A DNA stretch of 64,000 nt from contig WPIO01000035.1 in NCBI GenBank assembly GCA_009760855.2, positions 2,689,001-2,753,000 on the forward strand, written 5' to 3'. The DNA comes from Cristatella mucedo (lineage: Eukaryota; Bryozoa; Phylactolaemata; Cristatellidae). Under the pieces are notes generated by a model. The model searched no databases. It worked only from the letters and a program-made list of their open reading frames with translations, and had not been told where the DNA came from. The position numbers were made by a program, and so were the translations under genes. Numbering within the stretch: position 1 is the stretch's first letter; each line of letters begins with the position of its first letter. Shown here piece after piece: positions 237 through 37,966 of the stretch.

Positions 237-420
237 TCACGGCTTTTTGGAAGACCTGCTTCTCAGTGTCATGTTGAGTGGGCTAGCAGACGACGTCTGT
301 GAAAGTGATAGCACGGCTGCTGTCCGCCTCTTGACCAACGAGTTGGGCTTCTGTACTGACGAGTCTGCGGCTGGTGTGAAATTGATGGGCGTGTTACTTG
401 TCGGTTGAGGCTTGGCATTT
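237..420 (-). CDS. AHCTF1: ELYS exon 34, C-terminal basic exon with stop
   Basis: Acceptor ttttagatccag; the single leading base completes the codon left by exon 33, and the frame then runs 60 codons to TGA. The end is basic (SLVKRRTAAVL, MTLRSRSSKKP), like the basic C-terminus of vertebrate ELYS. A different frame gives an overlapping 86-residue ORF at 269-529, judged a shadow. Confidence 0.68.

Positions 421-37966: not shown

Follow-up and report, generated by a model that had tools for sequence, protein, structure and literature searches.

Organization of the ELYS gene

The 64,000-nt window analyzed here (contig WPIO01000035.1 of the bryozoan Cristatella mucedo, positions 2,689,001 to 2,753,000) carries on its minus strand, between positions 37990 and 237, a gene that by its sequence is one for the nucleoporin ELYS (MEL-28/AHCTF1). 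The original prediction, made by eye, had described a near-complete ELYS gene of 34 exons and 7,095 nt, with ELYS exon order as in vertebrates through the propeller and the helical domain; it came without exon coordinates, and the gene was rebuilt from the sequence. The preferred model, hand-assembled from spliced alignments, ab initio runs, and printed reading frames, comprises 35 coding exons, all bounded by GT-AG introns, which add up to 6,813 nt and 2,270 amino acids with a single stop codon (TGA, 239–237). The single frame and the stop at 237 were thereby recovered, whereas the exon number and the length were revised. Adding an exon at 37374 gives two variants of 36 exons, with lengths of 6,861 and 6,903 nt.

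An ab initio Viterbi run, with a codon table seeded from tblastn matches and generic splice-site weights, returned 30 exons, many of them at the same places as the tblastn chain described below. Under other intron penalties the number was 38, 58, or 119, and therefore the exon count is good to a few exons at best; both the count and the start of the model are slightly provisional. The splice sites of the 36-exon model outscored the whole set of AG and GT dinucleotides of the region (Mann-Whitney; partly circular, as the sites were picked by score), and the codon scores were negative in 5 of its 36 exons (those starting at 37990, 34920, 31287, 16398, and 426). The AT skew was positive in 20 of 20 2-kb bins between 1 and 40 kb, negative beyond that point, and about zero in two bins below position 1, a pattern that fits one minus-strand transcription unit. 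The core exons are as follows.

36144–36472, minus strand: exon 2, propeller (acceptor 36472; 36462 in one variant)
35420–35582, minus strand: exon 3, propeller
35070–35291, minus strand: exon 4, propeller
34812–34920, minus strand: exon 5, propeller
34580–34708, minus strand: exon 6, propeller (PEDDPRNFCYLWVV)
32147–32234, minus strand: exon 7, propeller
31476–31647, minus strand: exon 8, propeller
31143–31287, minus strand: exon 9, propeller, containing FDINRWYHAQMP (taken for loop 2)
30833–30917, minus strand: exon 10, propeller
30641–30734, minus strand: exon 11, propeller, weak donor (1.5)
30490–30551, minus strand: exon 12, end of the propeller
30059–30169, minus strand: exon 13
24667–24757, minus strand: exon 14, helical domain
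24468–24560, minus strand: exon 15, helical domain
23174–23332, minus strand: exon 16, helical domain, weak acceptor (0.8)
22553–22766, minus strand: exon 17, helical domain
22282–22435, minus strand: exon 18, helical domain (LMIDGLV), beginning of PF13934
21667–21780, minus strand: exon 19, PF13934
21373–21477, minus strand: exon 20, PF13934
21080–21276, minus strand: exon 21, PF13934
20003–20109, minus strand: exon 22, PF13934
19459–19634, minus strand: exon 23, end of PF13934 and beyond
17990–18131, minus strand: exon 24 (ARERSATRSTILDWYARTLP)
17495–17774, minus strand: exon 25 (LARPQPMSAV...)
17236–17421, minus strand: exon 26
16013–16398, minus strand: exon 27 (LLxTP and TPQSIL, common to 7vci_T)

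Three junctions had been flagged in the original prediction as picked partly for phase. In the rebuilt gene one weak mid-gene donor was seen (30641, score 1.5), and the large second-last exon has two acceptor options (4333 and 4540). A micro-exon of 22–30 nt at 25092 was left out, exon 13 joining exon 14 (24757) in phase without it. Reading 21477–21080 as a single exon, with the 96-nt intron left open, was rejected, since human ELYS (provisional sequence) has nothing that corresponds to the added residues.

Homology of the core to ELYS

The query of the tblastn and spliced-alignment searches was a provisional human ELYS sequence, and the tblastn matches are a lead only: amid many chance matches they form a minus-strand chain, in order, from 36449 to about 17.3 kb. 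The spliced alignment, whose scores are not fully independent because the codon table was partly trained on the gene's own exons, reached 396.4, with 333 of 1,054 aligned columns identical; it covered human residues 50–1127, or 1–1127 when begun at ATG 37990. All 12 shuffled queries remained below half of the real score, at about a third of it (129.0–143.4), a reversed query gave 132.6, and on the plus strand the human query scored 55.9 against the gene's own stretch and 50.1 at about 40–62 kb. These controls place the ELYS core beyond chance.

The Pfam and PDB searches, which are independent of the codon table, were run on a 2,300-aa form that includes the exon at 37374, the matched parts lying downstream of this exon. 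PF16687 (ELYS-bb, the N-terminal seven-bladed propeller) matched at 2e-41 (142.6 bits versus a cut-off of 25.8) along profile positions 92–485 of 489 and protein residues 137–589, and PF13934 (ELYS, the central helical domain) at 9.3e-30 (104.6 bits versus a cut-off of 28.8) along positions 2–219 of 220 and residues 839–1076. Both scores are far above their cut-offs, and these were the only two Pfam families matching the joined protein at E values up to 0.1.

Among 177,635 distinct PDB sequences, four matched at 0.001, every one of them named ELYS. The chains 7vci_T, 7r5j_T0, and 4i0o_A are presumably the Xenopus, human, and mouse proteins, respectively. The length of 7vci_T, 2,408 residues, is that given for Xenopus laevis ELYS in PMC6499780. 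This chain was the best match (3.4e-93, residues 158–1365 of the 2,300-aa form on 104–1204), followed by 7r5j_T0 (1.2e-88, residues 158–1167 of the same form), and the alignment with these two full-length chains was collinear over about 1,000–1,200 residues. The 12 residues FDINRWYHAQMP of exon 9 are identical to 4i0o_A (in the second matched stretch only). How the mutated residues are spaced in the worm protein (PMC4920428) suggests that FDINRWYHAQMP is loop 2 on blade 6, a loop that this paper describes as essential for function in worms. Exons 24–27, with the core attached, align to 7vci_T through LLxTP and TPQSIL; the tail piece alone had no match among the PDB sequences at E values up to 10. 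Sequence homology begins in the propeller, continues across the helical domain, and reaches the first tail motifs (residues 137–1,365 of the 2,300-aa form).

In agreement with the original prediction, the gene is an ELYS gene with its exons collinear on the minus strand, and the exon-by-exon reading by eye was essentially right across 38 kb. A chance mosaic, i.e. open reading frames picked to fit a remembered protein, was considered, given that by-eye models can be pushed to close in phase and that the shuffled queries likewise yielded alignments of 23–33 segments. The shuffled scores were about one third of the real one, however, and the independent profile searches (2e-41 and 3.4e-93) refute such a mosaic for the core, so that its probability is negligible.

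The N-terminus

The following features were considered at the 5' end of the ELYS gene.

37995–38014, minus strand: possible 3' splice site of a 5'-UTR intron (acceptor 4.66; the exon would begin at 37994, with GGTC followed by ATG)
37873–37990, minus strand: exon 1, residues 1–40, probable start ATG 37990 (modest likeness to the human N-terminus, provisional sequence)
37275–37374, minus strand: possible extra exon (DKLSAESFLDAI...), to 37275 or 37327 (by eye; very weak acceptor; in no automatic run)

The first exon had originally been read from 37966. This position follows a CAG, and the frame continues upstream for 24 nt to ATG 37990, which may be the start codon; the description of the gene as near-complete was fair, the start being perhaps missed by these 24 nt only. 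Exon 1 and the start codon precede residues 137 and 158, where the Pfam and PDB matches respectively begin, and so lie outside the profile support. The acceptor-like site at 37994 scored 4.66, and 4.7% of 2,469 AGs score 4.7 or more; no 5'-UTR exon was located upstream of 37994. First exons proposed by ab initio runs at 40553 and beyond were rejected, no ELYS similarity being visible in them, and an 18-nt exon at 37274, proposed by one spliced alignment instead of that at 37374, was not kept.

That the N-terminus differs from the preferred model, either by the extra exon at 37374 in one of its two forms or by a start further upstream, has a little less than an even chance. The 37374–37327 variant aligned best to the human sequence (BLOSUM62 score 28, versus 20 without the exon and 13, i.e. 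worse, for 37374–37275). The N-terminal residues aligned to the human ones (provisional sequence) only somewhat better than shuffles did, so that support for the start at ATG 37990 is modest: the number of shuffles attaining the real score was 35, 1, or 14 out of 500 in the three variants, the 35 belonging to the form without the exon and the 1 to the 37374–37327 variant (CGSHLEVLN excluded). This variant, however, requires sites scoring -2.3 (acceptor) and -0.4 (donor), and the 37374–37275 variant involves two acceptors below -2, whereas the splice sites without the exon score 6.2 and 4.9. Without it, moreover, the N-terminus up to LEVxN has 56 residues versus 58 in human. The form without the exon at 37374, which was also chosen by the ab initio run at the strictest penalty, is preferred.

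The tail exons and the end of the gene

Downstream of the core, eight further exons and a possible polyadenylation signal complete the preferred model.

15653–15815, minus strand: exon 28, D-rich tail (ab initio)
13956–14236, minus strand: exon 29, acceptor 10.3 (ab initio)
9610–9728, minus strand: exon 30 (ab initio)
6137–6353, minus strand: exon 31 (ab initio)
5514–6032, minus strand: exon 32 (ab initio)
5336–5389, minus strand: exon 33 (ab initio)
3295–4333, minus strand: exon 34, large (acceptor 4333 by eye; 4540 in ab initio runs)
237–426, minus strand: exon 35, basic C-terminus ...TLRSRSSKKP, stop TGA 239–237 (370–283 in ab initio runs)
135–140, minus strand: possible poly(A) signal ATTAAA, 97 nt 3' of the stop and the nearest of four AATAAA/ATTAAA in about 3.7 kb

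Exons 28–35 are the softer part of the model, being based on splice sites, open frame, and composition and not on homology. Their acceptors score 2.6–10.3 (p 2e-5 versus 2,469 AGs) and their donors likewise stand out (p 3e-6; Mann-Whitney, partly circular in both cases), and codon scores were positive in seven of the eight. In the exons that start at 6353 and 6032 the codon scores are weak, and another frame of the same strand scores equally. Exon 35 follows a TTTTTAG at 426 and continues the phase of exon 34; in our judgement it is to be preferred over 370–283 on account of its acceptor (3.6 versus 2.8) and its basic end. A further micro-exon of 21 nt, at 13455, is possible and would leave the phase unchanged, but it lacks support.

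An alternative, somewhat improbable rather than remote, is that the ELYS core (exons 2–27) is right while the true tail differs, some of its eight predicted exons being erroneous or part of a different minus-strand gene. The tail is supported by splice and codon scores alone, the ab initio runs picked other ends (acceptor 4540, last exon 370–283), and a run with flank added took exons far to the left of the window. Against this, the tail splice sites outscore the background, the AT skew is still positive down to position 1 of the window, and ATTAAA lies just past the stop. The preferred model keeps all eight exons.

A run of nine Asp residues lies in the predicted tail at residues 1446–1454 of the 2,270-aa form, at about 15.7 kb. 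The gene model, in which the tail exons are predicted, contains no canonical AT-hook ([RK]GRP), although an exon may have been missed; its one GRP, at residue 2015, lacks flanking K or R. The sole minus-strand RGRP inside the gene, at 1788, was rejected as an AT-hook exon because it lies in the last intron and misfits in phase. An exact C-terminal RRK is likewise absent from the model, whose predicted last exon ends in the basic TLRSRSSKKP, with a KRR at residue 2240.

Intactness and copy number

A search of the whole genome (572-Mb assembly, 688 contigs) with PF16687 gave two matches, at 2723597–2723710 and 2720136–2720279; these correspond to exons 6 and 9 of the present model. PF13934 gave none, the gene's own helical domain included, probably because single exons are short, which makes the search insensitive. 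No second ELYS copy was thus seen in the genome at this modest sensitivity, a diverged paralogue being possible, and the gene is apparently single-copy. A few weak splice sites might suggest a decayed pseudogene, but a single frame is open over some 6.8 kb, the introns argue against a retrocopy, and no second ELYS-bb locus was seen, all of which makes this reading very improbable. The ELYS gene is in all likelihood intact and apparently single-copy, with minus-strand transcription running from about 40 kb to about 0.1 kb.

Comparison with known ELYS proteins

After cell division ELYS seeds the formation of nuclear pores on chromosomes, and chromatin binding together with recruitment of the NUP107-160 complex is a trait of the family. 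According to PMC4920428, ELYS is known from nematodes to vertebrates and MEL-28 of Caenorhabditis elegans has two AT-hook sequences; this paper and PMC6499780 also describe localization of ELYS by the propeller and the helical domain. For Xenopus ELYS, PMC6499780 reports that nucleosomes are bound by means of an AT-hook and of an RRK stretch at the C-terminus, this Arg-Arg-Lys stretch contacting the nucleosome acidic patch.

The bryozoan protein shares with vertebrate ELYS/AHCTF1 the order of propeller, helical domain, ARP-rich linker, and LLxTP/TPQSIL motifs, as well as FDINRWYHAQMP; its length is 2,270 aa versus 2,266–2,408 in vertebrates, and it has about 32% identity to human ELYS (provisional sequence) over the aligned core, a value compatible with the invertebrate ELYS of the original prediction. 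Unlike the vertebrate proteins, it has propeller insertions and a predicted tail rich in Ala, Ser, Pro, and Asp, and the model is devoid of a canonical AT-hook and of an exact C-terminal RRK. By the description in PMC4920428, not by sequence, it has the family and domain order of MEL-28, whose two AT-hook sequences have no counterpart found in the present model.

By analogy with the known family, the protein would be brought to the nuclear pore by its propeller and helical domain and would contact chromatin through its long, partly basic tail. Both together would allow this ELYS to seed pore assembly on chromosomes after mitosis. It might be proposed that in this lineage neither the canonical AT-hook nor the exact RRK of ELYS has survived and that chromatin is held by a different basic tail (degenerate GRP, KRR, RSRSSKK), which we consider unlikely; if true, the two chromatin contacts described in Xenopus would not be universal in animals. 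The locus adds a new, good but unexceptional member to a family whose gene is already known from animals, and it provides a workable model of a conserved nucleoporin gene for an animal genome. The presence of ELYS itself was expected, and the tail without a canonical AT-hook is the only point that deserves a second look.

Surroundings of the ELYS gene

Near 40 kb the AT skew flips from positive to negative, and the CpG observed/expected ratio is 1.08 in the 38–40 kb bin; the region 38000–42000 is probably the start of both the ELYS unit and a divergent plus-strand gene. PH-domain exons lie on the plus strand in the flank just right of the window (flank positions 1103–1764), where PF00169 matched at 1.9e-07 with two pieces joined and at 0.005 with one alone, and PIYVNV-type motifs occur further on; the right flank is perhaps part of a large signalling gene on the plus strand, some of its introns lying in 40–64 kb. 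In the left flank, about 14–20 kb left of window position 1, SEC62-like exons are predicted on the minus strand (PF03839 0.0022, below the cut-off).

The frames at 60851–61405 (plus strand) and 49005–49298 (minus strand) look by eye like decayed LINE-type reverse transcriptase, and Pfam gave no match to them at E values up to 1. Rfam yielded nothing at gathering scores, with one weak mir-297 match (E 0.0043) below its own. Repeats were found in the ELYS introns and beyond; the dispersed family is up to 95% alike, and of the seven long dinucleotide arrays five have a 95–100% match, the first lying within ELYS intron 1.

2798–3219, 8262–8383, 10570–10919, 23922–24385, 28444–28956, 31692–32116, 48685–48974, both orientations: dispersed repeat family
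26090–26245, 11376–11471, 28587–28682, 13747–13855, 56749–56857: short repeats
37540–37728, 41149–41376, 43927–44035, 44955–45015, 45688–45855, 48146–48241, 53432–53547: dinucleotide arrays

The one tRNA-Lys-like match of ARAGORN (26167–26245) falls within a short repeat, and the short repeats are perhaps a tRNA-derived SINE.
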